Shown here in pieces: positions 37,043-57,759 of a stretch of 61,117 nt of DNA. The translations under genes were made by a program, and so were the position numbers. Source of the stretch: a virus; IMG/VR virus record IMGVR_UViG_3300023084_000018, positions 1 to 61,117 of that record; one strand, 5' to 3'. The notes beneath the pieces are model-generated. The model did not search any database and had not been told where the DNA came from. It saw nothing but the letters and a program-made list of their open reading frames with translations. The first letter of the stretch is position 1, and the number at the start of each line of letters is the position of its first letter.

Positions 37043-38890
37043 ATGAGAGCACTGCTGATACCAAACACAAAAGTAATATCAAAAGAACAGTTGATTGCTG
37101 AACTAATTGCAGACGGTGTCACTATCATTGATGACACAATCCCAGAAGTAATCAGAGTTGAAATGACAGGAAGACCACAGTTTGACACATGGTTAACTTC
37201 AGGAAAACTTGCAGGTGCTAACAGTGAAGATTATGAAAATAAATTGAGATTTCAAACAGATGCTTCAACTACAATAAATCCAGACACAACATCAACTGTA
37301 AGTACTGCACATCACAATTGGGGACTTGCGGCTATGACACAAGACAGTACAACGCTGTCAACAACATTTACATACAATCAAACAGGTGCAAATGTTGATG
37401 TGGTAATTATGGACACAGGTATTGTAGTTGGTCACCCAGAATTTAATGACTTGTCATCAAACACAACATCAAGAATAAATCAAATTTCATGGGGTGGAAC
37501 ACAAGGCGTAAGTTTTTACACAGATCCAGATGGTCACGGAACTCACTGTGCAGGTATCTCTGCAGGTAGAACACAGGGCTGGGCCAGAGATGCACAGATA
37601 TATTCATTTACAACAAACTTAGGTGGGTTGTCACATGGATATAATGCATCATCAATGGGTTATATAACTGCATGGCACAATTCAAAAGGCACAGGCAGAC
37701 CCACAGTGGTAAACATGAGTTGGGCAATAGCAACATACTTTCCACCTAATCATCCAGATCACTTTTTCTCAACAGTGGCATGGGATCCCAACAATGCTGA
37801 ATGGCATATGACAAGATCAAGTTCATATGACACGCTGGTTCAAAACATGGTCAATGCAGGTATAGTTGTTGTGTGTTCAGCGGGCAATGACAATGACAGA
37901 ATTTATGACACAACAGAAGCTGGCTGGAATTCAGGATACTGGTATTTCTTTGATGCAAACAATGACATGGGATACGGTATCAATGAAAAAATTTACAAAG
38001 AAGATGCATCAGCACATGATCCTGCTATACATGGAACAAACCCAAGAGCAGGAACACCAGGTGCTCCTCCAGGAGGCAGTTACGGAAACACAGTTTATTT
38101 TCAAGCAACTAATAATGGACAATCTCCAGGTAATGCTTGGTTAGATCCAACAACTGCAACAAGGTATGATATCAGTGTTCAGGCTTGTGATAATTTAAAA
38201 AACAAAGCAAGTTATTCAAACTACGGAACACCAAACATAACTTGGGCTCCGGGTAATTACATTATGAGTTCTTATATCAACAAAGGTTCAGCACAGCAGT
38301 TGGCTTCAACTGGTTATTATTATAATAAATTAAATGGAACATCAATGGCATCACCACAAATTGCTGGATTGATTGCTTGTTATCTAGATACAGATTCATC
38401 AACATTTGGTGCTGTAACAACATCAGCAAATCAGCAGTCTGCACAAAACTTTATTCAAACCAATGACAGAGACAACGACATAGTTGATTGGGGAGATGGT
38501 TTAACAAATTTACACAGAGCATATCAGCCATATCAAGATTACACAAAAACTTGGACAACAAGTGCAGGATCAATAGGCAGTGTAAATGAAAGCACTCCTG
38601 CTAGTTTTGATCTTTCATCAGCATTTACAAATGCGGCCAATGAATCACTACACACAGTAACACATTCAATACAGAGTGGATCAATACCAGCAAGTTTCAC
38701 ATTAGATAGTAATGGTACATTGTCTGGCACACCATCATCTTCAGAAGGTGGACAAACTTACAACTTTACAGTGAGAGCTGACAATGGATTTGATAATGAA
38801 GATCGTGCTTTTAGTTTAACTATCAATGACACATCATCACAAGTGAAAATGTCTGGTGGTGTTAAAATGAGAGGGTTAAGGTTTAGATAA
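37043..38890 (+). CDS. Subtilisin-like serine protease with C-terminal Ig-like domain
   Basis: 615 residues. S8 family triad is complete: D124 in VIMDTGI, H165 in DGHGTHCAG, S434 in NGTSMASP. Residues 1-90 lack a signal peptide and could be a propeptide-like or attachment domain. After the protease, residues about 505-600 form a putative Ig-like (He_PIG type) domain (IPASFTLDSNGTLSGTPSS). The last residues, KMSGGVKMRGLRFR, are basic. No secretion signal and a neighbouring lectin-like gene favour a virion-borne protease acting on host surface proteins, but a cytoplasmic role is possible. Confidence 0.88.
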   Translation: MRALLIPNTKVISKEQLIAELIADGVTIIDDTIPEVIRVEMTGRPQFDTWLTSGKLAGANSEDYENKLRFQTDASTTINPDTTSTVSTAHHNWGLAAMTQDSTTLSTTFTYNQTGANVDVVIMDTGIVVGHPEFNDLSSNTTSRINQISWGGTQGVSFYTDPDGHGTHCAGISAGRTQGWARDAQIYSFTTNLGGLSHGYNASSMGYITAWHNSKGTGRPTVVNMSWAIATYFPPNHPDHFFSTVAWDPNNAEWHMTRSSSYDTLVQNMVNAGIVVVCSAGNDNDRIYDTTEAGWNSGYWYFFDANNDMGYGINEKIYKEDASAHDPAIHGTNPRAGTPGAPPGGSYGNTVYFQATNNGQSPGNAWLDPTTATRYDISVQACDNLKNKASYSNYGTPNITWAPGNYIMSSYINKGSAQQLASTGYYYNKLNGTSMASPQIAGLIACYLDTDSSTFGAVTTSANQQSAQNFIQTNDRDNDIVDWGDGLTNLHRAYQPYQDYTKTWTTSAGSIGSVNESTPASFDLSSAFTNAANESLHTVTHSIQSGSIPASFTLDSNGTLSGTPSSSEGGQTYNFTVRADNGFDNEDRAFSLTINDTSSQVKMSGGVKMRGLRFR

Positions 38891-40512: not shown

Positions 40513-40620
40513 ATGAAAAATGTTGAACTTAAGACTCGTATTCTGTTGATTTTTTGTATAATATTTTTATTTTGTACATATATTGGAATAATATTTTTTG
40601 ATTTATTAGAGAAGTTATAA
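40513..40620 (+). CDS. Single-span membrane peptide, 35 residues
   Basis: ATG at 40513, ending TAA at 40620, whose last A is the first base of the next start codon. One hydrophobic helix (about 10-31: ILLIFCIIFLFCTYIGIIFF) between MKNVELKTR and DLLEKL. The exact junction with the radical SAM gene supports it being real. Confidence 0.55.
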   Translation: MKNVELKTRILLIFCIIFLFCTYIGIIFFDLLEKL

Positions 40621-42140
40621 TGGGAATAAGCAAAAACAAAAACGAATCATATCAACAGTGGCGTGATAGAACAATAGATAAAATATCACCCAGTTTCTGT
40701 GGAGCCAAATGGTACAATTCTACTATATGGTTAAACTCAGGATCCACTGCAAGTTGTCATCACCCGCCTGCACACAAAATACCTTTAGAAGAAGTATTGG
40801 CTAATCCTAAAGCCATACACAACACCAGTTATAAAAAAATGGTACGTAAACAGATGTTAGATGGTGAAAGACCCAAAGAGTGTGAGTATTGTTGGAAAGT
40901 TGAAGACCTAGGAAAAGAATATGTTTCGGATAGAACTTACAAAAGTGTTATATACAAAGAAGAAGATTTAGATCTCTGTAAAACCAAATACAGTTATACA
41001 GATGATGTTCCATTAAAAACATTAGAAATAGCCTTTGATGCCAACTGTAACTTTGCTTGTAGTTATTGTAACGCAAGTTTCTCTACGCAATGGCAGAACG
41101 ATATTAAGAAAAATGGTGCTTATCAAAATTTAGTTTCAGATGGTGCAAGAGCATTTCAACAAGATGGCTCATGGGCAATGAAGTATGGGAAAAAGAATGA
41201 AGGCAATCCATACATAGATGCATTTTTTAAATGGTGGGATATGGAACTTAAAGATACATTAGAAGAATTAAGAGTCACAGGCGGTGAAGCAACTATGAGC
41301 CAAGACTTTTGGAGATTAATTGATTGGTGGAAAAACAATCCAGAATGTGATGTGAGATTCAGTGTAAATTCTAACTTGGGTGCTAAACCAGAACTAATGA
41401 AACGACTAGTTGATGCTACACACAGTTTTAAAAATTTTGATCTATATACATCAAATGAAAGTTATGGTGCTCAGGCAGAATACATAAGAGATGGATTAGA
41501 ATGGGAAACATGGTTAAAGAATATTCATATGTTTTTACAAGAAGGCAATGTGCGAGAGTTTCACATGATGATGACTATCAATGCACTGTGCTTGTTTAGT
41601 CTTCCTGAGTTTATGGACGAAATGGTCAAACTCAAACAACAATATGGAAAACACTTTCCTACAATGAGTTTTAATATTTTAAGATTTCCAAGTTTTCAAA
41701 GCATAGTAACACTACCAATTGAAATAAGAAATGAACGTGCTAATGCATTAGAAAAATGGATAGAAGACAATCATACGAATCCATTAGTGCATGACATGGA
41801 AATAGATGGTATAAAACGATTAATTGAATATACCAGAGTTATCAAAACAGGTCATGCTTACACATCAAGTGAGATCACTAGACACAGAGACTTTAAAACT
41901 TTTTACACACAATACGATCAAAGAAGAAACAAAAATTTTTTAGAAACTTTTAAACATGCTGAACTACAAAAATGGTTTGTGAATATACCAGAAACTGAAA
42001 TAAATCCTGTAGGCTTGTTTGATGGTGATGCTACCAAAGGTTCGTTGCACAAACAAGAACTTGAACAACGTGCTAAAAAAGAGGGATGGGTAATAAAACC
42101 ACAAGGAGCCAACCCAGGTAGTAAGGAATATGTTGAATAA
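40620..42140 (+). CDS. Radical SAM protein 2 with N-terminal twitch-like cysteine domain
   Basis: 506 residues. N-terminal cysteines C27, C46, C88 and C91 (SCHHP, KECEYCW) are followed by the radical SAM triad C143, C147, C150 (CNFACSYC) and a VTGGEA motif near 219-224. Same architecture as protein 1, with an added C-terminal stretch of about 40 residues. Opens the block in which radical SAM, SGNH-like and T-E-K-motif proteins alternate. Substrate unknown; the family modifies peptides or small molecules by radical chemistry. Confidence 0.88.
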   Translation: MGISKNKNESYQQWRDRTIDKISPSFCGAKWYNSTIWLNSGSTASCHHPPAHKIPLEEVLANPKAIHNTSYKKMVRKQMLDGERPKECEYCWKVEDLGKEYVSDRTYKSVIYKEEDLDLCKTKYSYTDDVPLKTLEIAFDANCNFACSYCNASFSTQWQNDIKKNGAYQNLVSDGARAFQQDGSWAMKYGKKNEGNPYIDAFFKWWDMELKDTLEELRVTGGEATMSQDFWRLIDWWKNNPECDVRFSVNSNLGAKPELMKRLVDATHSFKNFDLYTSNESYGAQAEYIRDGLEWETWLKNIHMFLQEGNVREFHMMMTINALCLFSLPEFMDEMVKLKQQYGKHFPTMSFNILRFPSFQSIVTLPIEIRNERANALEKWIEDNHTNPLVHDMEIDGIKRLIEYTRVIKTGHAYTSSEITRHRDFKTFYTQYDQRRNKNFLETFKHAELQKWFVNIPETEINPVGLFDGDATKGSLHKQELEQRAKKEGWVIKPQGANPGSKEYVE

Positions 42141-42864
42141 AATAATTGCTGGCGGTTGTTCTTTTACATACAACAATGACATGACATGGGCAGGTGAAGT
42201 TGCCAAACATCATCATTTGATTAATGTAGGATCATGTGCATCTGGTAATGATTACATAGCCAGATCTGTTATACATGAAATGGATCAACACAATGATCAA
42301 ATATTATTGGTATGTCAATGGAGTGGTATTCATCGTAAAAGTTATTATATTGATTCACAACATATATTGTACAAAGAGCTAACACAAAGCGATTGGCCAG
42401 ATTGGGCAGGTGATTATACACAATTAGACAAAGATGCTGTTAAACAGCAGGAATTCTGGGTTAAAACCGGTGGAAATAACATAGACAAGCCAGGCTCTAG
42501 TAATTTAATACATGACAAGTTTGTGAAACCATATGCCAAATATTTCTATTCAGAGGAGCAATCTCTTGTAGAATCTCTTGAAAATATCCTCAGAGTACAG
42601 TATTATTGTAATAGTAAAAAAATAAAAAACATAATGTTTTGGTGGAAAACTGAATTGGAAAATTATAAGATGTCAACGTATAGTAAAGAATTATACAACA
42701 AAGTTTTAAAACAAGATACTGTTTGGTTAGAACCATTAGGTGATTGGTGTGTCAAACATACTGATTTAACACAGCATGATCTTGATCAAGGTGAGCATCC
42801 AACTGTCACACAACATAAAAATTATGCAGAGCAAGTTGTTTTACCTGCATTAAAAACAATTTAA
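42130..42864 (+). CDS. SGNH-hydrolase-like protein 1
   Basis: 244 residues, overlapping the radical SAM gene by 11 nt. Block I is GGCSFTY (residues 8-14; Ser11 in place of the GDS serine), a Gly/Asn turn follows in GSCASGNDYI (about 36-45), and the C-terminal HPTVTQHKNYAEQ (about 226-238) fits the D-x-x-H block. SGNH proteins remove or add acyl groups on sugars. One of four copies in 10 kb, paired here with the next gene. Confidence 0.68.
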   Translation: MLNKIIAGGCSFTYNNDMTWAGEVAKHHHLINVGSCASGNDYIARSVIHEMDQHNDQILLVCQWSGIHRKSYYIDSQHILYKELTQSDWPDWAGDYTQLDKDAVKQQEFWVKTGGNNIDKPGSSNLIHDKFVKPYAKYFYSEEQSLVESLENILRVQYYCNSKKIKNIMFWWKTELENYKMSTYSKELYNKVLKQDTVWLEPLGDWCVKHTDLTQHDLDQGEHPTVTQHKNYAEQVVLPALKTI

Positions 42865-42866
42865 CT

Positions 42867-44033
42867 ATGATAATCAAAAAACTTAATCCATGTCAGTATG
42901 AAGAACTTGAGTCTGTGTCAAGACTGATACAATATCCAAGTAACAATATTGATTACGACAGTGATCCGGGTGACGATCCTTTTTGGTTTGAAGTTGCCTG
43001 TTATGGATCAGGTATAGATGATTTGTGGCAAACAGATGCAATGCAACAAGCATTGCCTTATCTAAAAAGTGGTCAAGCCAAACTGGCAATATGTTACTTG
43101 CGTGAGATACCTTTTGGGCATGATGATCATGTTGTCATGCAAAGTCGTATAGCCTGTGACGGTGTTGATAGATATGGTATTGATCCAAAACAATTTTATT
43201 ATTTTTATAACAGCGATCCAAGTCATTTAGAATATCTTAACAAATATTCTTTAAACATCATACAAGTACCTTACTTTGAATATGATTTTGTTTTTAGACA
43301 TTTAGTTAACAATATTGATGTTTGTTATCCTGCAGATGCATTAACAAAAAAAGCACAGCGTACTTTTTTAGATATGAACGGTAAACCAAACAAGTACATG
43401 AGATTGCGTCATGTGGTTCATTTATGGAATAAAAGATTAATTGATAATGGTGTTATTAACTTGTTGCGTACTGATGAAGACACAAAACACTATCCTGATA
43501 AAAACGATTACTATCATTTAGTCAAAGATATTATTAACGAAAAAGATTGGAAAAAGTTTTGTGAGTGGTGGCCACAAAGTCATGACAATGCAGATACTCA
43601 ACAAAACTATGGAAAACACTTTAGCGGGTATCCGTACAACAAACAACTGTATATGGATACACACATGAGTTTAATTAGTGAAACACACAGCGGACATGAT
43701 AGTTGTAATCCAGAATTTTTTATAACTGAAAAATTAGTAAAAGCAATTGGTAACTGTCATCCTTTTGTTGTGTTGAGTACACCAAAATACTTAGAACAAT
43801 TAAAACTGTTTGGTTATAAAACCTTTGAACCATACATAGATGAATCATATGATCAAGAACTTGATACAGAATTAAGAATGGTAAAAGCAATTGACAGTGT
43901 AGAAAAACTTTGTAAAAAAGGTATACCTGTTGATTGTTTTGCTACTGCAATATATAATCAAACCAATTTATTCAATAGATTTCATAAAACAAATGAACAA
44001 TTAAAAGGTATATTTTTTAATGATAATATTTGA
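42867..44033 (+). CDS. GT10/exostosin-like T-E-K-motif protein 1
   Basis: 388 residues. C-terminal half carries SLISETHSGHD, then EFFITEKLVKAIGNCHPFVV (about 283-302) and a GYKTF-PYIDESYD stretch. The F-x-T-E-K...P-F-V-V pattern is the nucleotide-sugar-binding part of fucosyltransferase (GT10) or exostosin (GT47) C-terminal domains. The N-terminal half is unlike any family I know. First of five relatives in this block. Confidence 0.6.
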   Translation: MIIKKLNPCQYEELESVSRLIQYPSNNIDYDSDPGDDPFWFEVACYGSGIDDLWQTDAMQQALPYLKSGQAKLAICYLREIPFGHDDHVVMQSRIACDGVDRYGIDPKQFYYFYNSDPSHLEYLNKYSLNIIQVPYFEYDFVFRHLVNNIDVCYPADALTKKAQRTFLDMNGKPNKYMRLRHVVHLWNKRLIDNGVINLLRTDEDTKHYPDKNDYYHLVKDIINEKDWKKFCEWWPQSHDNADTQQNYGKHFSGYPYNKQLYMDTHMSLISETHSGHDSCNPEFFITEKLVKAIGNCHPFVVLSTPKYLEQLKLFGYKTFEPYIDESYDQELDTELRMVKAIDSVEKLCKKGIPVDCFATAIYNQTNLFNRFHKTNEQLKGIFFNDNI

Positions 44034-44940
44034 TTATCCTTTTTATAGACACACAATATCAAACAACAAACCAAATTTGGTATCTGGTAAGGCTATTGAT
44101 ATGCATTTTTTGAAAAAATATGAACCTGGTACCAGAATTAAAATAATAGAATTAGCAGAAGGAGATGTGCCTGGTCCATCGTCTACGGAAGATATTACTG
44201 TGTTTGATTATATACACAAAGCACTTGAAAAATATAATGTTGACTCAAACGATGTTGAAATGATACACGGTTCATTTAATTTTGATAATTTATATAAAAA
44301 CTGGGCAGGAGATAACATACGTATTGGACATAGAAACAGTTATGGTTTTTATTTCTTACAGGAACAAAAAAAACATGATAGTGTTAATTACAATGCATCT
44401 AGATCAAAACATTTTATTAGTTTAAATGGTGCTATTAAACCCAAACGCATAGAGTTTATAAACTTTTGTAAACAGCACAATCTCATGCACAATTATATCA
44501 GTTTGGTTGGTAACTATAACACAACTGATCAAAACATAGAACCTATACTGCTTGATAAAAATCAAGAAACATTAGGCTTTTCAGATAAAGTTGTACCAGA
44601 CTTTATGAATGATGCATATTTGAATATTATAAATGAAACACACGAAGATGACACAGTGTTTATGACTGAAAAAACATGGAAGCCTATATTGAATTATCAA
44701 CTGTTTTTATACTGGGGAGTAGGTAACGCACAAGACTACTATAACACATTATTAGACAATGGATTCAAATTGTACAACGAAATATTTGATTATAATAATA
44801 GTGTCAAAGATGAAATATTAAAATTTTGTAATACACCAATAAATCAAGTAAATGAAAAATTTGCAAGTGTTAAACACAAACTAGAATACAACAAAAAAAG
44901 AGCATTAGAAATAGAAGAATTTAAATATGACCACAATTGA
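44020..44940 (+). CDS. GT10/exostosin-like T-E-K-motif protein 2
   Basis: 306 residues, start overlapping the previous gene by 14 nt. Core: LNIINETHEDD, VFMTEKTWKPILNYQLFLYWG (about 210-230), then DNGFKLYNEIFDYN. Same order of motifs as its neighbours, with the P-F-V stretch replaced by Q-L-F-L-Y-W. Probably a sugar transferase; acceptor unknown. Confidence 0.58.
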   Translation: MIIFDYPFYRHTISNNKPNLVSGKAIDMHFLKKYEPGTRIKIIELAEGDVPGPSSTEDITVFDYIHKALEKYNVDSNDVEMIHGSFNFDNLYKNWAGDNIRIGHRNSYGFYFLQEQKKHDSVNYNASRSKHFISLNGAIKPKRIEFINFCKQHNLMHNYISLVGNYNTTDQNIEPILLDKNQETLGFSDKVVPDFMNDAYLNIINETHEDDTVFMTEKTWKPILNYQLFLYWGVGNAQDYYNTLLDNGFKLYNEIFDYNNSVKDEILKFCNTPINQVNEKFASVKHKLEYNKKRALEIEEFKYDHN

Positions 44941-45694
44941 TTTTAATGATGAAAATGTTTTATTAGCAGGTGGTGACAGTTTTACTGCTCACTTAATGGA
45001 ATCAAATGTTGCATGGCCTAATCATATAAAAAAATGGATTGCTGACACTAAAGTAGTTGCAGAAATGGCCAGTGACAATGAACTGATAGCAAGAAATTTA
45101 ATTAAAGGTATTGAGAAATATAAACCAACACATGTAGCAGTTGGCTGGAGTGATCCCAACAGATTCAGTTTGTATGTCAATCAAGAACATCCATTATACT
45201 TAGAAATATATGATAAAATGAAAACACATGCTGGATTCACAAATCAAATACTCACAGGCGAATGGCACTGCGACACTAGAGGTAGTTTTATAAAACCAGG
45301 TGGCGGATATGACACGTGGGAAACTGACAGTGATATCGTTAACAAAATGGTCAAAGATTATATTAAGACATACCACACTAGAGAAAATCAAATGATGAAA
45401 ACACTAGAATCAATATTGTTAATACAAGAACTATGTGCGAATCGTGATATTGAATTACTAAACTTTAAAGCATGGGATCATGATTTATTTCACACAGCAT
45501 ATCCTATGACAAAACATTTAGAAAAGTTAATTGATAAAGATTGTTGGTGGATGTACAACGGAAAAAGTGGTCTTAAAGAATGGTGCAAGGATCGTGGTGA
45601 TAATGAAATGCCTGGCGGACATCCTGCATCAGAATACCAATATTTGTTTGCTATATCTGTTATAGAACCATGGATACAAAGTGAAAATATATAA
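44927..45694 (+). CDS. SGNH-hydrolase-like protein 2
   Basis: 255 residues, 14-nt overlap upstream. Block I is the classical G-D-S: AGGDSFTAH (residues 14-22). ASDNELIARN (about 46-55) fits block II/III, and GGHPASEYQYLFA (about 228-240) supplies the terminal His. Best conserved of the four SGNH copies, with Asp rather than Cys before the serine. Confidence 0.7.
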   Translation: MTTIDFNDENVLLAGGDSFTAHLMESNVAWPNHIKKWIADTKVVAEMASDNELIARNLIKGIEKYKPTHVAVGWSDPNRFSLYVNQEHPLYLEIYDKMKTHAGFTNQILTGEWHCDTRGSFIKPGGGYDTWETDSDIVNKMVKDYIKTYHTRENQMMKTLESILLIQELCANRDIELLNFKAWDHDLFHTAYPMTKHLEKLIDKDCWWMYNGKSGLKEWCKDRGDNEMPGGHPASEYQYLFAISVIEPWIQSENI

Positions 45695-46613
45695 ACATCC
45701 AAAGTATTACTATGATTTAGAATCTGTAACTAGATTTATCAATGTTGAATATGTGACTGATATTAACAGTGCAGATTATGTTGCTATAGCAACTAGCGAA
45801 CCAGTACCAGTATTTGAAGGAATAACAAAACCAATATTGTATTCTTATATAAGAGAACATCCTTATCCGCATGATGAGTATTTAAAAATACAATTTGAAA
45901 GTTTAAAGTCTACACAAGATATTACTATTTTTAGTTTGAGCAGTTTTGATCATTTTGCGTCAGGAAGAAAAAATATTATTATTGATCAATTTGAACTTGA
46001 TGCTTATCATAGATTGTTTATAGAAAAACAATGTGAAGTTGTTGATACACACATAGGATCAAATTTAAGATATCTATTTTTAGGAGGCAAAGCCAATAAA
46101 GGAAATAGAAAACCATTATATGAAGAATTGAAAAGACTTGGCGTTGCAGATGAAGGTGTTTGTAGTTTGTTTGGTGTAGTTGAAAGCCCAGACGATATTG
46201 AAATTAAAAACAATCACTACATTGGATATCCTTACGATTTAAGACTGTATAAAATTACCAATTTAAGTTTAGTTGCTGAAACACACTTTGAACACAATCA
46301 AGAATTTCATCCAACTGAAAAAATATACAGAGCAATAGCAAACAAACATGGTTTTATTGTTGCAAGTACTCCATTTTTTTTAAATAACTTAAGAAAAAAA
46401 GGATATGAAACATTCAGTAATCATTGGAGTGAAAATTATGATTTTGCTAAAGATCACAAGGATAGATTAAAACAAGCGGCATTGTCTTTGCTACAGGCTA
46501 CCAAAACATCTGAATATGGTTTAATAAAACCAATCTGTGAACACAACTTAAATACATTAAAAAACAATGCACAACAAACAATTCAAAATATACTTAACGG
46601 ACTAGTAAAATGA
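45681..46613 (+). CDS. GT10/exostosin-like T-E-K-motif protein 3
   Basis: 310 residues from GTG at 45681, overlapping the SGNH gene by 14 nt; no ATG is suitably placed. Core: LSLVAETHFEHN, FHPTEKIYRAIANKHGFIVAS (about 212-232), GYETFSNHWSENYD. The N-terminal part has ILYSYIREHPYPHDEYL, similar to the CYLREIPFGHDDHV of T-E-K protein 1, so these two share both halves. Confidence 0.6.
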   Translation: MKIYKHPKYYYDLESVTRFINVEYVTDINSADYVAIATSEPVPVFEGITKPILYSYIREHPYPHDEYLKIQFESLKSTQDITIFSLSSFDHFASGRKNIIIDQFELDAYHRLFIEKQCEVVDTHIGSNLRYLFLGGKANKGNRKPLYEELKRLGVADEGVCSLFGVVESPDDIEIKNNHYIGYPYDLRLYKITNLSLVAETHFEHNQEFHPTEKIYRAIANKHGFIVASTPFFLNNLRKKGYETFSNHWSENYDFAKDHKDRLKQAALSLLQATKTSEYGLIKPICEHNLNTLKNNAQQTIQNILNGLVK

Positions 46614-47350
46614 AAATAGTAACATCAGGTTGTAGTTTTACACATGCACCAGACAGTTGGGCTAACTATCTCAAAGATCAATATAATTTAATTAATGTTG
46701 CTGAAGGTGGTGGTGGCAACGAAATGAACACTAGAAATATCATACGTGCTATATACGAACATGATCCAGATTATGCAATACTTCAAATTTCTGGAATAGA
46801 CAGATATGAATTAATCAGTGACGACCTTATAGATTTTGAATCAGATGCTGTTGTTAAAACAAAAAATTATACATGGTTAAAAAGCACTGGCGATATTGAA
46901 TGGGCTAAAAATATTGATCCAAGAGTTGCAAAACCCATTGAAAGTTACATGAAATATTGCTATAATGAAACACATCAAATAATTAGAACATTAAGCAGTA
47001 TTAAAAACTTTCAAACAGTGTGTCAGCAACAAAATATTAAATATAGAATCTTTTTCTGGATGAAAGAGCTTGGTAATAGAAGAAAACAAATAATTAATAA
47101 TGATACTGAACTTACTTTTTGGTATAACAGTATTGATTGGTCACAGTTTTGGTTTCATGATCAAAACAAAGGCTTATCCGAATGGGGTATTGATTATGGA
47201 TTTACTGGAGCAATACACGAGGATCATATTAATACCCCACCACAGGGTTGGGCTATGATAGAAGGAAAGAAAACAATGGTAGGTCATCCGTCAACAGAAT
47301 GCCATCGGGCCTTTGCCGAACAAGTGGTCAAACAATGGTTAGTACAATAA
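46610..47350 (+). CDS. SGNH-hydrolase-like protein 3
   Basis: 246 residues, ATGA overlap upstream. TSGCSFTHA (residues 5-13) is block I with Ser9; NVAEGGGGNEMNTRN (about 32-46) is the Gly/Asn block; GHPSTECHRAFAEQVV near the end gives the His. Sequence closest to SGNH protein 1 (both Cys-Ser, both ending AEQVV). Confidence 0.68.
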   Translation: MKIVTSGCSFTHAPDSWANYLKDQYNLINVAEGGGGNEMNTRNIIRAIYEHDPDYAILQISGIDRYELISDDLIDFESDAVVKTKNYTWLKSTGDIEWAKNIDPRVAKPIESYMKYCYNETHQIIRTLSSIKNFQTVCQQQNIKYRIFFWMKELGNRRKQIINNDTELTFWYNSIDWSQFWFHDQNKGLSEWGIDYGFTGAIHEDHINTPPQGWAMIEGKKTMVGHPSTECHRAFAEQVVKQWLVQ

Positions 47351-48684
47351 TGCATATTAATTTACTTTATCAAACACATGACGAGCAAAAAGGTTATCTA
47401 CCTAATTGTATTCCTTTTTGGAAAAGAACCCCAGAACATTTTAAAAATTATGGCAACGTCAAATACGAATATCTTGAAGAACTATTAGAACACGGTAATG
47501 TAACAATTAACAAATGCAATTTAGATCATGCACAAAAAAGCACTGAAACATTCTGGTTTCATATACAACCTGAATGGATTGACTTGAGTTTCTTTTATGA
47601 AAATGTTTTTCATTACATAGATGAAGATTATATGAGAGCAATACGTATGGAGCCAAATGTCAAAATATTGTTATGGTTTCCAAGTGAAGGATTTCATTTG
47701 AGTATGCCTAGATTTATTGACGATATTCTTTACACTCTAAATGATAAAGGTATACCAGAAGAAAAAGTTTACATGGTTTTTGGAGATCTAAGAATACAAG
47801 AAAATTTTAAATATTATTGCAAAAAGAAAAAAATAGATTCTAAACTAAAAACATTTGGCATGAACATATTTGAATTGAACTATTGGGTTGAAACTAACAG
47901 AATGTATTTCAGTAAAAACAGAATGAAAGAAATTAATCCCAACAATGAAATAGTGCATCCATCAGAAGTTAACTTTGAAGAACATAGATCAAAACGTATT
48001 GTTTGTAGAAATGCTAATCCTAGACCACACAGAATATTTGTTGTCAGCCAACTTTATAAAAAAGGATATGATAAACAAGGTTACATCAGTTTTTTAAATA
48101 GATACTTCACACCTGGTGTTCCAACAAATATAACAGATTTTACCAAAGACGAAAATGTACTTGCTACTGCTGAGCAAGACATGAAAGAGTTTTTAGCACA
48201 AACACCAATTGTGCTTGATGAAACAGCAGAAACTATAGGCACAGATTTAAATCAAAGACGTATGCAAAAACAACATTACCTTGACAGTTATTGCAGTATA
48301 ATTAATGAAACTGTTTGTGATAGTTTTCCAGGAGATCCATTGTTTATAACTGAGAAAGTTTATCAACCAATCCTACAACTGCACCCGTTTATTGTGTTTG
48401 GGTCTAAAGGAACTATGGAATATTTGCAAGACACTGGCTACAAAACATTTAATGGTTTTTGTTTGGTAGATGAAAAATATGATTGGGCTTCAAACTCTGC
48501 AGACAGAATGGATCAAGCCATGGAATGTGTACGAAAACTGTTTGCTTTTGATATAGAAACATTACATAAAGAATACATTAAAATATTTGATAATTTAGTA
48601 TATAACCAAGAACACTTTTTAAAATTAGAAAAAGATAGATATTTTGACAAATTAATGTTATGGTTAAATACAAGTAAGGATTAA
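47350..48684 (+). CDS. GT10/exostosin-like T-E-K-motif protein 4
   Basis: Start set at the ATG at 47350, in a TAATG overlap (444 residues). Core: YCSIINETVCD, PLFITEKVYQPILQLHPFIVFG (about 334-355), TMEYLQDTGYKTFNG. The N-terminal half (LLYQTHDEQKGYLPN, HIQPEWIDLSFFYENVF) is its own. Larger than its relatives, possibly with a second lobe as in GT-B folds. Confidence 0.6.
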   Translation: MHINLLYQTHDEQKGYLPNCIPFWKRTPEHFKNYGNVKYEYLEELLEHGNVTINKCNLDHAQKSTETFWFHIQPEWIDLSFFYENVFHYIDEDYMRAIRMEPNVKILLWFPSEGFHLSMPRFIDDILYTLNDKGIPEEKVYMVFGDLRIQENFKYYCKKKKIDSKLKTFGMNIFELNYWVETNRMYFSKNRMKEINPNNEIVHPSEVNFEEHRSKRIVCRNANPRPHRIFVVSQLYKKGYDKQGYISFLNRYFTPGVPTNITDFTKDENVLATAEQDMKEFLAQTPIVLDETAETIGTDLNQRRMQKQHYLDSYCSIINETVCDSFPGDPLFITEKVYQPILQLHPFIVFGSKGTMEYLQDTGYKTFNGFCLVDEKYDWASNSADRMDQAMECVRKLFAFDIETLHKEYIKIFDNLVYNQEHFLKLEKDRYFDKLMLWLNTSKD

Positions 48685-48688
48685 TACT

Positions 48689-49720
48689 ATGAAAGAATTA
48701 AAAACATTTGATTTAAACTCTTTTGATCACAACAACTCAACTATTGACGGTCATGTTAGATCAGCGGGTAAATGGTTAAAAGAAAATCAAAAATTCAAAG
48801 ATCAATACAATGTTGTTTTGTTGTACACTTACGAAGGTGAAGTGCATTTTAATCAGAAAGATTATTTTTTAACTGCACTTAATGAAGAACTTAACACAGA
48901 ATGGTCCAAAGACAGTATTTTTCTAGTCATGGCAGATGCAAATTTAAAAGATAATATTGATCGTTGGTTTGCTGGTACAAGTCGTAGGAGTTCCCCGTTA
49001 ACACCTATTGCATGGCCTTTAGGATTGTTAAAAAGAACACAACAATATTATTCTAATAAATCTATTAAACAACCAAAAGCACACTCAACTATTACTAAAA
49101 AATTTATTTGCATGAACGCCGCGGCAAAACAACATAGAGCAAAAATGGTAGACTTTTTAATTGGCACAGGGCAACAAGGGAGCATTAGCTGGTTAAATCG
49201 TTATGGTAAATTAAATCACAAACAATATGAATATCAGAACTGGGACGGCAGTGAAATAAAAATGGACTATGATGCAAGTTCAATTGACCAAGGACACAAC
49301 CAAGATGTACTTCCTCCAACTTATTATTATTCAGGTTTTGAAATTGTAAATGAAAGTATCATCAGTGATACAAGTTTATTTGTAACTGAAAAAACATGGA
49401 AACCTTTAATGTATGAAAGAGTTTTTGTACCACATGGATCAAAAGGCACAGTTACTTTTTTGAAAGAGTTAGGTTTTGATTTGTTTGAAGAAGAACTAAA
49501 CATCAATTATGATTGGGATAATTTACCTTACACAGAAAGATGGCCAGCACTAACTGATACTATAAACAAACTACTTGAAATATCAGTTGATGAATGGAAC
49601 ACGTTTTATCAGAGAGATGACATAAAGAAAAAACTTAATAAAAATAGTACACTTGCTAGAACGTTAAACATACCAGGATGGATGAACCAAATTATTGCTC
49701 ACAATGAAAAAAATAGATAA
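48689..49720 (+). CDS. GT10/exostosin-like T-E-K-motif protein 5
   Basis: 343 residues. Core: FEIVNESIISD, LFVTEKTWKPLMYERVFVPHG (about 231-251), FLKELGFDLFEEEL, NINYDW. FICMNAAAKQHRAKMVDFL (about 139-157) resembles the ISLNGAIKPKRIEFI of T-E-K protein 2, so those two are closer kin. Ends inside the next radical SAM gene. Confidence 0.6.
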   Translation: MKELKTFDLNSFDHNNSTIDGHVRSAGKWLKENQKFKDQYNVVLLYTYEGEVHFNQKDYFLTALNEELNTEWSKDSIFLVMADANLKDNIDRWFAGTSRRSSPLTPIAWPLGLLKRTQQYYSNKSIKQPKAHSTITKKFICMNAAAKQHRAKMVDFLIGTGQQGSISWLNRYGKLNHKQYEYQNWDGSEIKMDYDASSIDQGHNQDVLPPTYYYSGFEIVNESIISDTSLFVTEKTWKPLMYERVFVPHGSKGTVTFLKELGFDLFEEELNINYDWDNLPYTERWPALTDTINKLLEISVDEWNTFYQRDDIKKKLNKNSTLARTLNIPGWMNQIIAHNEKNR

Positions 49721-50933
49721 AGACAAATTAATAAATTCCAAAACATTTTGCATGATACCATGGACGCATTTGCACACATGGCCAGATGGTAGAATATTGA
49801 CTTGCTGTATGAGTCCTAGCAACATGCCTATGGGCAATTTAAAAGACATGACACTAGAACAAGCATGGAACAGTGATCATCAAAAGCAATTGCGTAAAGA
49901 TCTACTAGCAGGAAAAACTAGTAAAGTGTGTACTAGATGTATGGAAATGGAAAGAAACAATATATCTACTACTAGACAATGGTCTAACAAACATTTAGCA
50001 AATCACTGGGACGTGGTTGAATCAACTAAAGAAGATGGCACAGTTGACAAAGTTAATTTGCCTTATATTGATTTTAGATTCAGTAATTTATGCAACTTTA
50101 AATGCAGGACTTGTGGTCCTGATCTAAGTTCTAGTTGGTATGAAGATCATTCTAAAATTTGGAGTAAACCAGATCAACCTAAAATTATAAGACCGTACAA
50201 AGACGAAAAGACTTTTTGGGAAAAAGTTGAACCATATATGGACGGCTTAGAAGAAATATATTTTGCAGGTGGTGAACCACTTATTATGGACGAGCATTAC
50301 AGAATACTAAAACGTCTTGTGGAAAAGAAAATGTTTCATGTCAAACTAAAGTACAATACAAACTTCAGTCAAATGACTTACAAAGATATTGATGTGATGC
50401 GTGAGTGGGACAAATTTGAATTTGTTGAAATAGGTGCTAGTTTAGATGCCAGTCATGAACGTGGAGAATATTTACGTAAAGGACAAAGTTGGGAACAAGT
50501 TGAAGCAAACAGAAAACGAATGTTTGAAATATGTCCTAGAGCTTATTTCTTTTTAGCCACTTGTTTGGATGTGTTTAATAGTTTTCATGTGCCAGACTTT
50601 CATATTGATTGGTACAAACGTGGCTGGATCAAAAACGAAGGCAGTTTGATTAACCCATTACTAACACCAGGATATTTAAGAATACAGATGTTGCCTGCAC
50701 ACATGAAAGACCAGCTCAGAGAAAAATATCGTCAAGCACAAGAGTGGATGGACACAAATACCAAAGACAAAAGTAAAAGATACGATGCATTGATTCAATT
50801 TTTAGATGAAGCAGACTACTCACACAAGATCAAAGAGTGGTTTGAGACTACTGAAAAGTTGGATAAACTGAGAAACGAAAATTGGCGTGACGTATTTCCA
50901 GAATTGCAAGATTTACAAAATTACGTCAAATAG
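49704..50933 (+). CDS. Radical SAM protein 3 with N-terminal twitch domain
   Basis: 409 residues from the ATG at 49704, overlapping the previous gene by 17 nt. Textbook N-twitch start: TFCMIPWTHLHTWPDG (14-29), LTCCMS (C34, C35), GNLKDMTLEQAWNS (44-57), CTRCMEME (C76, C79). Radical SAM triad C130, C134, C137 (CNFKCRTC), and FAGGEPLI near 185-192. It differs from proteins 1 and 2, which have CHHP instead of the CC pair. Last plus-strand gene before the inverted segment. Confidence 0.9.
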   Translation: MKKIDKDKLINSKTFCMIPWTHLHTWPDGRILTCCMSPSNMPMGNLKDMTLEQAWNSDHQKQLRKDLLAGKTSKVCTRCMEMERNNISTTRQWSNKHLANHWDVVESTKEDGTVDKVNLPYIDFRFSNLCNFKCRTCGPDLSSSWYEDHSKIWSKPDQPKIIRPYKDEKTFWEKVEPYMDGLEEIYFAGGEPLIMDEHYRILKRLVEKKMFHVKLKYNTNFSQMTYKDIDVMREWDKFEFVEIGASLDASHERGEYLRKGQSWEQVEANRKRMFEICPRAYFFLATCLDVFNSFHVPDFHIDWYKRGWIKNEGSLINPLLTPGYLRIQMLPAHMKDQLREKYRQAQEWMDTNTKDKSKRYDALIQFLDEADYSHKIKEWFETTEKLDKLRNENWRDVFPELQDLQNYVK

Positions 50934-50946
50934 TTCAAAAAAAGAT

Positions 50947-51003
50947 TCATTTTAAGGGTCGTACAGTGGGGTCAAAGCCACCACCTGGGGTGTTAGTACC
51001 CAT
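50947..51003 (-). CDS. Possible 18-residue Gly/Pro peptide
   Basis: ATG at 51003, stop TGA at 50947: MGTNTPGGGFDPTVRPLK. It is 17 nt past the stop of the minus-strand gene upstream, in the same direction. The reading frame is about half GC, well above its surroundings. No ribosome site beyond an AT-rich stretch. It sits between radical SAM genes, so a modified-peptide precursor is conceivable, but length and lack of a leader argue for caution. The same DNA could instead be an RNA element. Confidence 0.35.
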   Translation of the reverse strand: MGTNTPGGGFDPTVRPLK

Positions 51004-51020
51004 AAAAAATAACGATTATT

Positions 51021-51707
51021 TTAAATTTTTAATTTATATGTTATTGCTAAATGACCATGTCTTTCACTGTTAATTTTATGTACTAGTATATCATTAACTG
51101 TAATTGAATCACTGTTAGATAAACACCAATCAAGATTTATGAACTTGTTGCTTTTTGTTTTAAATGTAATTTCTGATTCAAGATAATTTTTTATAAAACC
51201 ATACTGCTTAGATATTTTTTTATATTCCCCAGAGCTAGAAAGATGTATATCACCAACTAACAGACATGTTGATGACTGAGATTGACAATATTCAAAAACT
51301 GTTCTAACATCTGTTTCTGCGTCTACTGATGTTATGTTATCTTCAGGAAAACACGGTAATACTGAACATAATAGAATGTCATTAAGTTTAACGTAGAGTG
51401 CTTTACATCCTTGATATTCATTTTCTGAATTCATTACTTTAGAATAACTAGGGAGAGTTTGTACATGCGACCATTCGCTTAATTCTTCTGGACCGGCTAT
51501 AACTAAATTCAGTGTTTTTCCATTTGATCTTTCGCGTGAATGATTTGTGTAATATACTTTTGAAAATTGTTCTTTTAAAGATGCTATTTTATATTCTGGA
51601 ACACGCTGTAATAATGCAATATCGCAATTACTAATATGTTGATTAAAATAATCTTCACCAAAATGAAATTGATCTGCGTTATGCTGTGTGACTCTATATT
51701 GTTTCAT
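51021..51707 (-). CDS. Endonuclease/exonuclease/phosphatase-fold protein, degenerate
   Basis: 228 residues. Segment order matches the EEP fold: IALLQRVPEYK (about 31-41, normally L-Q-E), LLVGDIHLSSSGEY (about 149-162, normally G-D-F-N), INLDWCLSNSD (about 190-200) and RHGHLAITY near the end (normally S-D-H). Several catalytic positions differ, so it may bind rather than cut its substrate, or act on an unusual phosphodiester. Overlaps the SGNH gene upstream by 14 nt. Confidence 0.5.
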   Translation of the reverse strand: MKQYRVTQHNADQFHFGEDYFNQHISNCDIALLQRVPEYKIASLKEQFSKVYYTNHSRERSNGKTLNLVIAGPEELSEWSHVQTLPSYSKVMNSENEYQGCKALYVKLNDILLCSVLPCFPEDNITSVDAETDVRTVFEYCQSQSSTCLLVGDIHLSSSGEYKKISKQYGFIKNYLESEITFKTKSNKFINLDWCLSNSDSITVNDILVHKINSERHGHLAITYKLKI

Positions 51708-52533
51708 TTTTAAAATACTTGTTAATTAACAAGTTGGCTAATTTAGTATTACCTTTTTTGTCAAAATGATATCCGTTATCAACAACAAGTTTGTCAAAGT
51801 CTTTTAGTTGACGTTGCACGATCACTTGATTGGTAGGAACATCTGTTACAAAACTGTTGTCAAGCCAAAACATATGAATAACTTTTGCACCTATATGTTT
51901 TACATACATGTCGCAGTACTCAACAGTTTCTTGATACTTTTCAAAAGTCAACGGATGTAATCTTTCATGTTCATACCAGTACTTGACTCTTTCAATTATG
52001 TTACCTTTTAGTAATCCGCTTTTTCTTTGAATTTCATTAAACATATGATCAGTAAGCTCTGGTTGTGTTCCGTTTATGATTGCTTCTGCCATGCCTTGAG
52101 TGAGATGATAGTAACACTGTGAGTTGTCCCACAATTGAATATAGTTGTCATACACATCATGATCTCGTGTGATCACACTGTATTTCTTTTTGTCAGAACA
52201 CCATAACAACATGCCTCTGTCTGGAGTGGTGTGTTGTATCACATAAACATTTGGATTGTATTTTTTATGAATGTATTTTATTGTTTGTGGATAGTTAACC
52301 CAACTGGCTCCACTTCTACCAGCATTGATCACTTGTACTTTTTCTTTGAATTTTGGTATGTCAACATCTAGTTCGGTTATTCTTTTGTACAAACTGTATG
52401 TTTGTTTAATATCATCTGTTAAAAGTTCTTTACTTTTGTTCAACTTCTCGTGTAAAATATAAGGATAAGTATGTGTATAAGGTATGTTGTGCCCTTGGGT
52501 CCAACTGCAACCTATAAATGAGATAGTAAACAT
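51694..52533 (-). CDS. SGNH-hydrolase-like protein 4
   Basis: 279 residues from the ATG at 52533 (MFTISFIGCSWTQ). Block I is GCSWTQG (8-14), a middle block VINAGRSGASW, and the C-terminal NGYHFDKKGNTKLANLLI is a good D/H block. The longer upstream frame would run into the opposite radical SAM gene and lacks a start signal. Its start codon shares CATG with the start of that gene. More like a general SGNH lipase/esterase than copies 1-3. Confidence 0.7.
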   Translation of the reverse strand: MFTISFIGCSWTQGHNIPYTHTYPYILHEKLNKSKELLTDDIKQTYSLYKRITELDVDIPKFKEKVQVINAGRSGASWVNYPQTIKYIHKKYNPNVYVIQHTTPDRGMLLWCSDKKKYSVITRDHDVYDNYIQLWDNSQCYYHLTQGMAEAIINGTQPELTDHMFNEIQRKSGLLKGNIIERVKYWYEHERLHPLTFEKYQETVEYCDMYVKHIGAKVIHMFWLDNSFVTDVPTNQVIVQRQLKDFDKLVVDNGYHFDKKGNTKLANLLINKYFKNETI

Positions 52534-53710
52534 GAACAATAAATTTCCTAATAATTTTTGTATTCTACCATGGACTGCTCTAGAGGTACAACCCAATGGA
52601 ACTGTTAAACCATGTTGTATGTACAAAGATACACTAAAAAAGACAAATGGTCAAGAGTATTTAATACAAAAAGACACCATGGCTGATATATGGAAAAGTG
52701 ATGAATTACAAGATATTAGAACTAGATTTTTATCAGGTACACAGCCAAGAGGATGCCACAGATGTTGGATGGAAGAGTTGTCTGGTAAAGAATCTAAAAG
52801 AGTTAGAGACAACAAAAAATACAAGCAACACATCAACGACGATGTAATTTTTAACCAAGACAATCAACCAAAGTATCTTGATTTAAAATTAGGAAATATT
52901 TGTAATCTCAAATGCAGAATTTGTTCTCCACAGTACAGTTCAAGATGGATCAGTGAAAAGAAAAAATATGATCTAATAGATGGTATTCATCAAGAGTATG
53001 AAAGATTGGATTGGCCAGAAAAGTCTAAATTGTTTTGGGATAATATTGAATCAATACTGCCACACATTGAACATTTAGATTTCACAGGTGGTGAACCATT
53101 TATGATTAAAGAACATTTTGATTTGTTAGAAAGAATAAAAGAAAAAAAACTAGCTCATAGAATTTCAATACACTACAACACAAACGGTACACAGTTACCA
53201 ATGAATGCTTTAAAAAATATATGGCCTCATTTTAAATCAGTTGATATTCATTTTAGTATTGACGGACTTAAAAAGCATTTTGAATATCAAAGACATCCTG
53301 CCAAATGGGACGCAGTTACTGAAAATTTATATATTTTCAAAGAACACGAATCAAAGCAATTGACATTAAGTATCTGTCATACAGTTAATGTGTTTAATGT
53401 TTTATACTTGCCTGAGTTTTTAAAATGGGCTGATGAAATAAAATACAGTGTTTACTTAAACAGTTTACACGAACCAATGCATTACAATATAACATGTTTA
53501 CCATACACACAAAAAATTGAAATCAAAAACAAATTGGAAAAATCAGATATTGATTTTTCACAAGTGATTAATTTTATGATGCAACCAGCAAAGCCAAAAC
53601 ATTATAATAGATTGTTGAAAGAAATCAAAAGAACAGACATTGTGCGTCATGAAAAATTTGAATCAGTGTTTCCAGAAATGCAAAAACTATTTGAGGAGGT
53701 ATTGATATAA
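52532..53710 (+). CDS. Radical SAM protein 4 with N-terminal twitch domain
   Basis: 392 residues from the ATG at 52532 (MNNKFPNNFCILPW), overlapping the opposite start codon. N-twitch cysteines C10, C28, C29, C75, C78 (PNGTVKPCCMY, CHRCWMEE); radical SAM triad C124, C128, C131 (CNLKCRIC); FTGGEPFM near 184-191. Closest in style to protein 3. A TATAAATG sequence 12 nt upstream could be a late-type box inside the divergent gene. Followed by the nitroreductase. Confidence 0.9.
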   Translation: MNNKFPNNFCILPWTALEVQPNGTVKPCCMYKDTLKKTNGQEYLIQKDTMADIWKSDELQDIRTRFLSGTQPRGCHRCWMEELSGKESKRVRDNKKYKQHINDDVIFNQDNQPKYLDLKLGNICNLKCRICSPQYSSRWISEKKKYDLIDGIHQEYERLDWPEKSKLFWDNIESILPHIEHLDFTGGEPFMIKEHFDLLERIKEKKLAHRISIHYNTNGTQLPMNALKNIWPHFKSVDIHFSIDGLKKHFEYQRHPAKWDAVTENLYIFKEHESKQLTLSICHTVNVFNVLYLPEFLKWADEIKYSVYLNSLHEPMHYNITCLPYTQKIEIKNKLEKSDIDFSQVINFMMQPAKPKHYNRLLKEIKRTDIVRHEKFESVFPEMQKLFEEVLI

Positions 53711-56206: not shown

Positions 56207-56722
56207 ATGAAATTAGTTTTTTATCCAGATGCGTGGCTCACAAAAAAAGTAGAGCCGTTTGATTTTGAAAAGTTAGATGCTGAACAGATTGAAAAACAAA
56301 TGATAACCTTGATGAAGATTTCAAAAGGTGTTGGCTTGGCCGCTAACCAAGTGGGCCTTGATGCACAAATATTTGTTATGACAAACAAATATGGAGAAAA
56401 CTTTTCAATTATCAATCCAACAATAGTTGCCGCAAGTCAAGAAACAGTCATGGGTGAAGAAGGTTGTTTGAGTTTTCCAGGATTGTTTTTAAAAGTTAAA
56501 AGAGCTCAATCACTTGCTGTTGAGTTTTACGATCCTAAAGGCAACAAGCAAAACATAGAATTCACAGACTGGGACGCAAGAGTTTTTCAACACGAGTTTG
56601 ATCACTTGTATGGAATAAACTTTATCAATAGAGTTAGTAAACTTAAACTAGATATGGCTAAGAAAAAGCAGGAAAAATTAGTTAAAAAGATTATGAACGA
56701 TATTGAGCAAAATAAAAAATAA
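56207..56722 (+). CDS. def: Peptide deformylase
   Basis: 171 residues, usual size. All three motifs present: GVGLAANQ (41-48), EEGCLSFPG with the metal Cys (about 84-92) and QHEFDHLYG (about 127-135). It removes the formyl group from nascent proteins. Phage deformylases are known from cyanophages, where they favour rapid turnover and processing of certain host or phage proteins. The gene ends one base from the convergent membrane-protein gene, with no terminator between. Confidence 0.95.
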   Translation: MKLVFYPDAWLTKKVEPFDFEKLDAEQIEKQMITLMKISKGVGLAANQVGLDAQIFVMTNKYGENFSIINPTIVAASQETVMGEEGCLSFPGLFLKVKRAQSLAVEFYDPKGNKQNIEFTDWDARVFQHEFDHLYGINFINRVSKLKLDMAKKKQEKLVKKIMNDIEQNKK

Positions 56723-56723
56723 T

Positions 56724-57041
56724 TTAGATACTCCAATAATAATTCATTAGACCACCCACTAACAACGTCACAAGTATTGCATTTAAAAATAGCAGTGCTC
56801 GGTCGTGCCATAAGTAACCAACCCATGCCCAACCAATTGTACCAAACAATCCAAACCACATATCCACATGTGGAATGGTTCCTACACTTCTAGAAGCAGT
56901 TGCTATTAAAATAAAAAATACTGATACCCATTTAACGTACCATGACAGATCACCTTTGGGTGTGACTTTCTTTATTACTCTAGATGAATTTAATTTCTTT
57001 ATCTTGTCGTCAAGTTTTTCTTTTATAGGTTCAATTGTCAT
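56724..57041 (-). CDS. Membrane protein, 105 residues, about three spans
   Basis: A charged N-terminal 30 residues (IKEKLDDKIKKLNSSRVIKK) precedes SWYVKWVSVFFILIATASRS (about 33-52), WFGLFGTIGWAWVGYLWH (about 62-79) and LLFLNAILVTLLVGGLM. Conserved look and Trp-rich spans resemble a family common in marine T4-like phages with no assigned function. Overlaps the NAD synthetase gene by 11 nt; last gene of the early operon. Confidence 0.65.
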   Translation of the reverse strand: MTIEPIKEKLDDKIKKLNSSRVIKKVTPKGDLSWYVKWVSVFFILIATASRSVGTIPHVDMWFGLFGTIGWAWVGYLWHDRALLFLNAILVTLLVGGLMNYYWSI

Positions 57042-57759
57042 TTTTAAATACCGGTATTGGATTCATTTTGTGTAAATTAACTTTTCTTATTTTTTGATAT
57101 GTGTCATAGTATTCACTGTTTGATCCATGTGTCATGGCATGTTCCATTTGTTCATATGTTAAGCCACCTAATTGATCTAGATCAGTTCTGCCATCTTCCC
57201 ACAAACCATCTGTAGGAGGTGCATCTATAATTTCTTGTAACACATTTAAATCTTTACCCAACTGCCATACTTGTGATTTCATTAGATCTGCAATTGGTGA
57301 TATGTCCACTCCACCATCTCCGTATTTGGTATAAAAGCCAACTCCAAAGTCTTCCACTTTGTTTCCTGTGCCAACAACTAAACCTTGTGTGGCACCTGCA
57401 ATGTGATGTAGTGTGATCATTCGTATTCTTGATTTGGTATTTGCAAAAGCATGTTGATTATTAAAGTCAATCTGCATTTCAAATTTAAATGCATTGTACA
57501 CTGTGTCTAAATCAACTGTGATGTGTTCAACATTTGAAAACTTGTCTGTTAACCATTCACCGTGTTTGATACTAAGGTCATGCTGTGATTGAATTTGTTT
57601 GATTGGCATTGACACTGCATACACAGGTAACTCTGTCATTGCACACAAAGTACTAACCACCGATGAATCAATACCACCCGATACTCCTACAACCAGTGTT
57701 TTACGATTGTGTTCCGTTGCATAATTTTTTATCCAGTTAGATATTTTGTTTTGTAACAT
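57031..57759 (-). CDS. nadE: NAD synthetase, ammonia-dependent (NadE)
   Basis: 242 residues. The ATP-pyrophosphatase loop VSGGIDSS (26-33), TKSRIRMITLHHIAG (about 108-122), VVGTGNKVEDFGVGFYTKYG (split, about 127-146), GGVDISPIADLMKSQVW and DAPPTDGLWEDG match NadE. No glutaminase domain, so it uses ammonia, and it is somewhat shorter than bacterial enzymes (about 275). It converts nicotinate adenine dinucleotide to NAD. Sits in an early operon one base from the gene upstream, suggesting NAD supply early in infection. Confidence 0.92.
   Translation of the reverse strand: MLQNKISNWIKNYATEHNRKTLVVGVSGGIDSSVVSTLCAMTELPVYAVSMPIKQIQSQHDLSIKHGEWLTDKFSNVEHITVDLDTVYNAFKFEMQIDFNNQHAFANTKSRIRMITLHHIAGATQGLVVGTGNKVEDFGVGFYTKYGDGGVDISPIADLMKSQVWQLGKDLNVLQEIIDAPPTDGLWEDGRTDLDQLGGLTYEQMEHAMTHGSNSEYYDTYQKIRKVNLHKMNPIPVFKNDN

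Follow-up and report, generated by a model that had tools for sequence, protein, structure and literature searches.

The virus record IMGVR_UViG_3300023084_000018, analysed here over its entire 61,117 bases (the window, in whose positions all coordinates are given), carries at 40620–53710 a block of 13 genes in which three radical S-adenosylmethionine (SAM) proteins, four SGNH-hydrolase-like proteins and five proteins sharing a T-E-K motif alternate, together with one further gene, K. An original prediction, made from the sequence alone, had read these three gene types as a candidate undescribed system that builds or edits a sugar- or peptide-based product, and profiles and coordinates bear out its gene counts. 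Our results suggest that the block probably encodes a soluble pathway by which an uncultured T4-like phage assembles and tailors a glycan in the cytoplasm; that the product is a glycan can be said with slightly more assurance. A joint function with a sugar-based product is well supported by the recurrence of the gene combination, the GT-B fold of the T-E-K proteins, the sugar enzymes encoded nearby and related bacterial clusters.

Gene content and packing of the block

The genes are arranged in the order rSAM A, SGNH B, TEK C, TEK D, SGNH E, TEK F, SGNH G, TEK H, TEK I and rSAM J, followed by K and SGNH L on the minus strand and by rSAM M (Table 1). A to J are ten plus-strand genes extending from 40620 to 50933, and seven of their junctions overlap by 1–17 nucleotides (nt; A/B 11, C/D 14, D/E 14, E/F 14, F/G 4, G/H 1 and I/J 17), while two are separated by gaps of 2 nt (B/C) and 4 nt (H/I). 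K and L overlap by 14 nt, and L and M are divergent and stand head to head, their start codons overlapping (CATG, 52531–52534). As judged from the relatives, the start of TEK H is most likely the ATG at 47350 and that of SGNH L position 52533. The mostly overlapping arrangement described in the original prediction was thus found again junction by junction, and its statement that the genes are translated together holds for A–J, which form one plus-strand translational unit, but not for the whole block.

Hydropathy marks all 13 proteins of the block as soluble, without membrane segments. The sole PHROG matches within the block are to radical SAM families, so that no core T4 gene was found in it, as the prediction had stated. 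K, which had not been listed before, appears as a lone insertion between the conserved genes J and L; a resemblance of its product to endonuclease/exonuclease/phosphatase proteins was seen by eye only, and this assignment was dropped.

The three protein families

Comparison among the T-E-K proteins identifies them as true paralogues (E-values of about 1e-5 to 1e-21 between closer pairs), and an iterated profile of the family closes at 97 members, the weakest at 3e-40, in 41 of 53 loci; the shared motif noticed earlier is therefore not a matter of chance. Near-invariant residues are, in TEK F numbering, E59, F131, R143, E200, E213, K214, G241 and N289. None of the five proteins matched Pfam at E 0.1 (PF00852 included) or PHROG. 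Structure prediction was run for TEK F, and the AlphaFold2 model (pTM 0.89) returned the Helicobacter pylori alpha-1,3-fucosyltransferase first in Foldseek and exostosins next, while VIA-align matched it over the whole chain to many GT-B enzymes (Z 11–12.7 over 247–278 residues). Among viral models, some twenty uncharacterised proteins from Caudovirales come closest. One viral match, 788 amino acids (aa) long and annotated as UDP-glucose/GDP-mannose dehydrogenase, also fits this fold (E 9e-12), which suggests a fusion.

The T-E-K model resembles the H. pylori GT10 enzyme in its GT-B fold. An hhalign comparison with ten GT10 sequences puts R...E...TEK...P, candidate catalytic or donor-binding residues, in colinear order, but at a level that is not significant (p 0.0004 to 0.04, probability 1–16%), and the T-E-K proteins have no PF00852 match. 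Assignment to GT10 is not supported on these grounds, and the best reading is a putative GT-B-fold glycosyltransferase family that is GT10-like in its motif; of the predicted GT10/exostosin-like character, the fold was recovered in the model and GT10 membership was not. The family occurs in at least 482 viral stretches. Three T-E-K queries gave no match in 50,697 phage records, nor did a single-protein scan with TEK D as query return any.

For the SGNH proteins, the AlphaFold2 model of SGNH G superimposes on TesA with a root-mean-square deviation of 3.2 over 158 residues and also matches the peptidoglycan O-acetyltransferase PatB (Table 1), and the family profile detects TesA by sequence at E 1e-4. 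The G-x-S nucleophile of block I and the C-terminal His are present, S9 being invariant and G7 and H226 conserved in at least 90% of members.

All five radical SAM proteins of the window score above the curated cut-off (170 bits) of NF033640, the NCBIfam model for twitch domain-containing radical SAM proteins. In this family, N_Twi_rSAM, whose twitch-like domain is N-terminal, the three cysteines of the CxxxCxxC radical SAM motif are conserved at 100% over 283 members, and four N-terminal cysteines conserved at 99–100% are candidate ligands of an auxiliary Fe-S cluster. Viral loci commonly have four to seven radical SAM genes in a tandem run.

Co-occurrence in viral loci

A search with rSAM M yielded 50 viral loci, and a second one with T-E-K alone, without selection for radical SAM genes, yielded 79; loci around the baseplate gene of the window in close relatives (n = 21) served as the control. 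N_Twi_rSAM was present within 10 kb of T-E-K in 61 of the 79 loci compared with 2 of the 21 controls (Fisher p 1.7e-8), and SGNH in 42 of 79 compared with none of 21 (Fisher p 2e-6), the true significance being weaker than these values because some contigs are near-duplicates and the test ignores relatedness. The gene types thus recur together in virus genomes, and the lack of co-occurrence in relatives that the original prediction had named as refuting it was not seen.

Five relatives (L008–L012) carry the block with the internal order C-E-D-F-G-H-I-J, D and E being swapped in the window. In four of them the RpiB-type isomerase gene, which lies upstream of the block in the window, separates H from I. 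L009 and L012 have the block as a whole in the opposite orientation with respect to L-M, and K is missing from all five. Among adjacent same-strand pairs of the families of this island, as we call the block together with its counterparts, 506 of 567 overlap when the longest possible starts are used, so that the overlaps are upper bounds, and just 9 are separated by at least 100 nt; within A–J no gap reaches 100 nt.

In many relatives, tail-fibre genes (clusters c15 and c9) stand first and are followed by a GT8-like pair and a GT-A-like gene, then by a radical SAM run with T-E-K and SGNH, and finally by a conserved protein and a NodU-type carbamoyltransferase. The GT8-like pair (GTc6) occupies 31149–32880 in the window. 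Recurrent neighbours are the NodU-type carbamoyltransferase (64 loci), a StrB1-like amidinotransferase (39 loci; match to PDB 1bwd at E 1e-20), an epimerase/dehydratase (30), a nucleoside diphosphate (NDP)-sugar dehydrogenase (24), a DegT/PseC-like aminotransferase (23), an APS-kinase-like protein (13), RpiB (9) and an HldE-II-like nucleotidyltransferase (8). Nearly every named one is a sugar enzyme. The conserved protein, single-copy, about 370–400 aa long and without Pfam or NCBIfam match, is found in 64 viral loci (for instance L025, 12469–13572), in many of them with the radical SAM run on one side and the carbamoyltransferase on the other; the window has no homologue.

The sequenced Vibrio phage K566 has four N_Twi_rSAM genes among which GT8 (PF01501) and weak GT4 matches are interspersed; this cluster lies 3–9 kb from a gene annotated as PagP and an LpxC gene (PF03331, E 1e-40). 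The latter two are adjacent to each other at 23978–25244. N_Twi_rSAM genes also occur in Vibrio phage QD01, which infects the laboratory strain V. natriegens Vmax.

Relatives in bacteria

Scanning 84,980 bacterial species with N_Twi_rSAM as the anchor gave 77 loci. Four loci on what are evidently T4-like phage contigs (L059–L061 and L109) and one viral-looking locus (L098) were left out of the cellular evidence. The four contigs are filed in unrelated bacterial metagenome-assembled genomes (MAGs) and carry the same T4-like phage island, which probably reflects binning contamination. L098 (NZHE01000012.1), filed under a Rickettsiales MAG, appears viral; 14 mixed-type radical SAM genes lie there within 21 kb, and a T-E-K gene adjoins an NDP-sugar dehydrogenase gene.

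In two Bacteroidetes loci, N_Twi_rSAM is accompanied by carbamoyltransferase and SGNH genes, in L117 together with an epimerase, an NDP-sugar dehydrogenase, a GT4 glycosyltransferase and an ABC ATPase, and in L110 with an ABC protein showing a weak Wzt_C match. In Bdellovibrionia and a related MAG, T-E-K occurs with radical SAM runs (L075, L251 and L252), adjoins an NDP-sugar dehydrogenase gene (L250 and L251) and lies near genes for a GT9 heptosyltransferase (L250), a GmhA-like SIS isomerase (L252) and SGNH proteins (L075 and L252). L251 is chromosomal, as it stands beside ribosomal-protein genes. The association with sugar chemistry consequently holds outside phages.

Proposed pathway and alternative explanations

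For the individual reactions, their order, the acceptor and the benefit to the phage, we infer the following scheme. RpiB in the window and sugar-nucleotide enzymes in relatives would supply donor sugars, the five T-E-K GT-B enzymes would add sugar residues stepwise, the SGNH proteins may add or remove acyl groups, and the N_Twi_rSAM enzymes might dehydrogenate, epimerise or otherwise edit sugar carbons, much as BtrN acts on an aminocyclitol. The likeliest acceptor is a lipid-anchored glycan in the envelope of the infected host, similar to the core of lipopolysaccharide (LPS), and the altered host surface would act against competing phages. Given a glycan product, we consider the chances roughly even that its acceptor belongs to the host envelope; the virion is a weaker though serious candidate, and any other acceptor would be rather surprising. 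This leaning, with the virion second, follows from the bacterial relatives and from phage K566.

Several points weigh against the proposed glycan pathway. The enzymatic reactions of the block are deduced from sequence, the T-E-K profile is not significantly related to GT10, and most characterised SPASM radical SAM enzymes work on peptides. Block III of the SGNH proteins is divergent, an invariant Arg (R65) being found there and not the usual G-x-N-D, so that acyl transfer and hydrolysis are both possible. The window lacks genes for the carbamoyltransferase, the amidinotransferase and DegT, although an absence may simply mean that this 61,117-base record with its T4-like baseplate genes is a fragment. 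No flippase, polymerase or ligase was found, and the 2598 proteins of the island loci include just 3 polytopic membrane proteins, compared with 55 of 1077 in the bacterial loci. Export would therefore depend on the host unless the acceptor is cytoplasmic; the scarcity of membrane proteins fits either LPS-core-type assembly in which the host does the flipping or an acceptor protein in the cytoplasm, and speaks against a Wzx/Wzy system encoded by the phage.

A cytoplasmic protein acceptor is what virion glycosylation would entail, the same enzymes assembling the glycan in place on a structural protein, for instance that of the tail fibre. Tail and structural genes precede the island, both in the window and in many relatives, its membrane proteins are rare and the block proteins are soluble, and glycosylated virions are reported for mycobacteriophages (Freeman 2023, as cited in PMC12619734). 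Solubility does not discriminate between the two acceptors, however, since LPS-core enzymes are soluble too, and the bacterial relatives lie in envelope polysaccharide clusters, while K566 has LpxC and PagP nearby. We regard this explanation as possible but doubtful.

The radical SAM enzymes could instead modify a ribosomally synthesised peptide that the other gene products glycosylate and acylate. NF033640 belongs to the SPASM/twitch group, many of whose members are peptide-modifying, and weak secondary matches appeared in the NCBIfam comparison. Nevertheless, the tight packing of the genes leaves no space for a precursor gene beside a maturase, the block contains no conserved short open reading frame and the neighbours are sugar enzymes, so that the peptide-based product also considered in the original prediction is disfavoured and improbable.

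Hypermodification of DNA would be one further use for GT-B enzymes, which glycosylate modified bases in T4; a structural comparison of the T-E-K model also lists AGT and BGT of T4 (Z about 12), and some phages are reported to hypermodify their DNA with glycans (Pyle 2024, as cited in PMC12619734). This GT-B similarity is generic, though, the island has no recurrent companion gene for hydroxymethylation of bases (thymidylate synthase is found in 5 loci only), and the context of SGNH, carbamoyltransferase and DegT genes better fits surface sugars, which makes DNA a very unlikely target. Equally hard to sustain is a diffusible aminocyclitol-like signal or inhibitor, as the StrB1-like amidinotransferase, carbamoyltransferase, DegT and twitch radical SAM proteins recall aminoglycoside pathways but stand with several glycosyltransferases and no exporter, and the bacterial relatives with polysaccharide export genes.

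Returning to the glycan pathway, it offers a testable role for N_Twi_rSAM, which is multi-copy in uncultured phages and also found in Bdellovibrionia and Bacteroidota, and it names a putative glycosyltransferase family that has no Pfam model. If it is correct, phages run multi-step radical chemistry on sugars and thereby remake the cell surface or the virion. More speculatively, N_Twi_rSAM might be a large class of sugar-editing radical enzymes. Uncultured phages would then combine tandem sets of these with a new GT-B family and so produce surface glycans, aminocyclitol-like and radical-tailored, that are beyond the biosynthetic reach of their hosts.

Other features of the window

T4-like baseplate and tail genes are present in the window. 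The GT8-like and GT-A-like labels in Table 1 were given by inspection of the sequence, as Pfam returned no match. A gene for a subtilisin-family (S8) protease with a C-terminal Ig-like region (37043–38890; PF00082, E 5e-24) is flanked by two radical SAM genes and adjoins the tail and structural genes. Peptide deformylase and NAD synthetase genes lie downstream of the island (56207–57759), and NAD synthetase is also found near M in L010–L012. The T4 late-promoter motif TATAAATA has 1 match in the whole window against about 8 expected, as if avoided. Promoter and terminator scans gave matches at chance level, and an Rfam search gave none.

Table 1. Genes of the block and its surroundings in the window
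Feature	Position	Strand	Evidence
Two adjoining GT8-like putative glycosyltransferase genes	31149–32036, 32026–32880	+	Cluster GTc6, 36 loci
Putative GT-A-like glycosyltransferase	33645–34649	+	Conserved cluster GTc3, 71 loci
RpiB/LacAB-type sugar-phosphate isomerase	34646–35122	+	PF02502, E 7e-43
N_Twi_rSAM, close paralogue of rSAM A	35637–37031	+	NF033640, 334.0 bits
rSAM A, N-terminal-twitch radical SAM protein, 506 aa	40620–42140	+	NF033640, 307.8 bits; CNFACSYC motif
SGNH B, 244 aa	42130–42864	+	GCSFT block I; weak DUF6071 match; same family as E and G
TEK C, predicted GT-B-like glycosyltransferase, 388 aa	42867–44033	+	TEK family profile
TEK D, 306 aa	44020–44940	+	TEK family profile
SGNH E, 255 aa	44927–45694	+	SGNH family profile
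TEK F, 310 aa, GTG start	45681–46613	+	AlphaFold2 pLDDT 91; Foldseek top match GT10 fucosyltransferase 2nzw, E 1.7e-6
SGNH G, 246 aa	46610–47350	+	AlphaFold2 pLDDT 93; TesA Z 14.0; PatB Foldseek E 2.3e-5
TEK H, 444 aa, start by relatives	47350–48684	+	TEK family profile; alignment with relatives
TEK I, 343 aa	48689–49720	+	TEK family profile
rSAM J, 409 aa	49704–50933	+	NF033640, 403.2 bits; SPASM and Radical_SAM Pfam matches
K, 228 aa	51021–51707	-	No Pfam, PHROG or NCBIfam match; no homologue among the first 52 loci fetched
SGNH L	51694–52533	-	SGNH profile, E 3e-41; kept beside M in five relatives
rSAM M, 392 aa	52532–53710	+	NF033640, 375.3 bits
N_Twi_rSAM, outside the block	58166–59200	-	NF033640, 216.2 bits

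Comparison with known systems

The closest cellular counterparts are bacterial ABC-transporter-dependent (Wzm/Wzt) polysaccharide clusters, with which the island shares, in L110 and L117, N_Twi_rSAM, carbamoyltransferase and SGNH genes and, in L117, also the epimerase and NDP-sugar dehydrogenase. The bacterial clusters have export genes and PhyH dioxygenases, whereas the phage island is without an exporter.

For the radical SAM enzymes, the butirosin 2-deoxy-scyllo-inosamine dehydrogenase BtrN, a twitch radical SAM enzyme acting on a sugar-like substrate, an aminocyclitol, combines the radical SAM motif with an auxiliary cluster, which is ligated by four cysteines (PMC9012708), the same number as in the candidate N-terminal set of N_Twi_rSAM. 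In contrast to BtrN, the twitch-like domain of N_Twi_rSAM is N-terminal, and the likeness seen is one at the superfamily level. The neomycin epimerase NeoN is a second radical SAM precedent on a sugar-like substrate (PMC10991966).

The original prediction had called the system a candidate undescribed one, which is only partly right. The T-E-K family, its combination with N_Twi_rSAM and SGNH and a role of N_Twi_rSAM did not turn up in the open-access papers searched, but regions with glycosyltransferase and radical SAM genes as such have been published (PMC7029224). The marine T4-like virus TARA_ERS488813_N000010, with 12 radical SAM genes, shows a comparable expansion of this family, read in the relevant part of that report as Fe-S metabolism and with no link to glycan genes drawn there (PMC5332604). 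Pelagimyophages and cyanomyophages, T4-like as well, have a host-recognition hypervariable region beside their tail-fibre genes that is rich in glycosyltransferases and, in pelagimyophages, carries radical SAM cassettes (PMC7029224). In the part of that paper concerned, the region is mainly of GT8 type, and the T-E-K family, SGNH genes and a fixed three-family operon are not described. The island is itself a variable region with putative glycosyltransferases in a T4-like phage, near tail genes in the window and by tail-fibre genes in many relatives. For the pelagimyophage region the authors propose modification of the host O-chain (PMC7029224).

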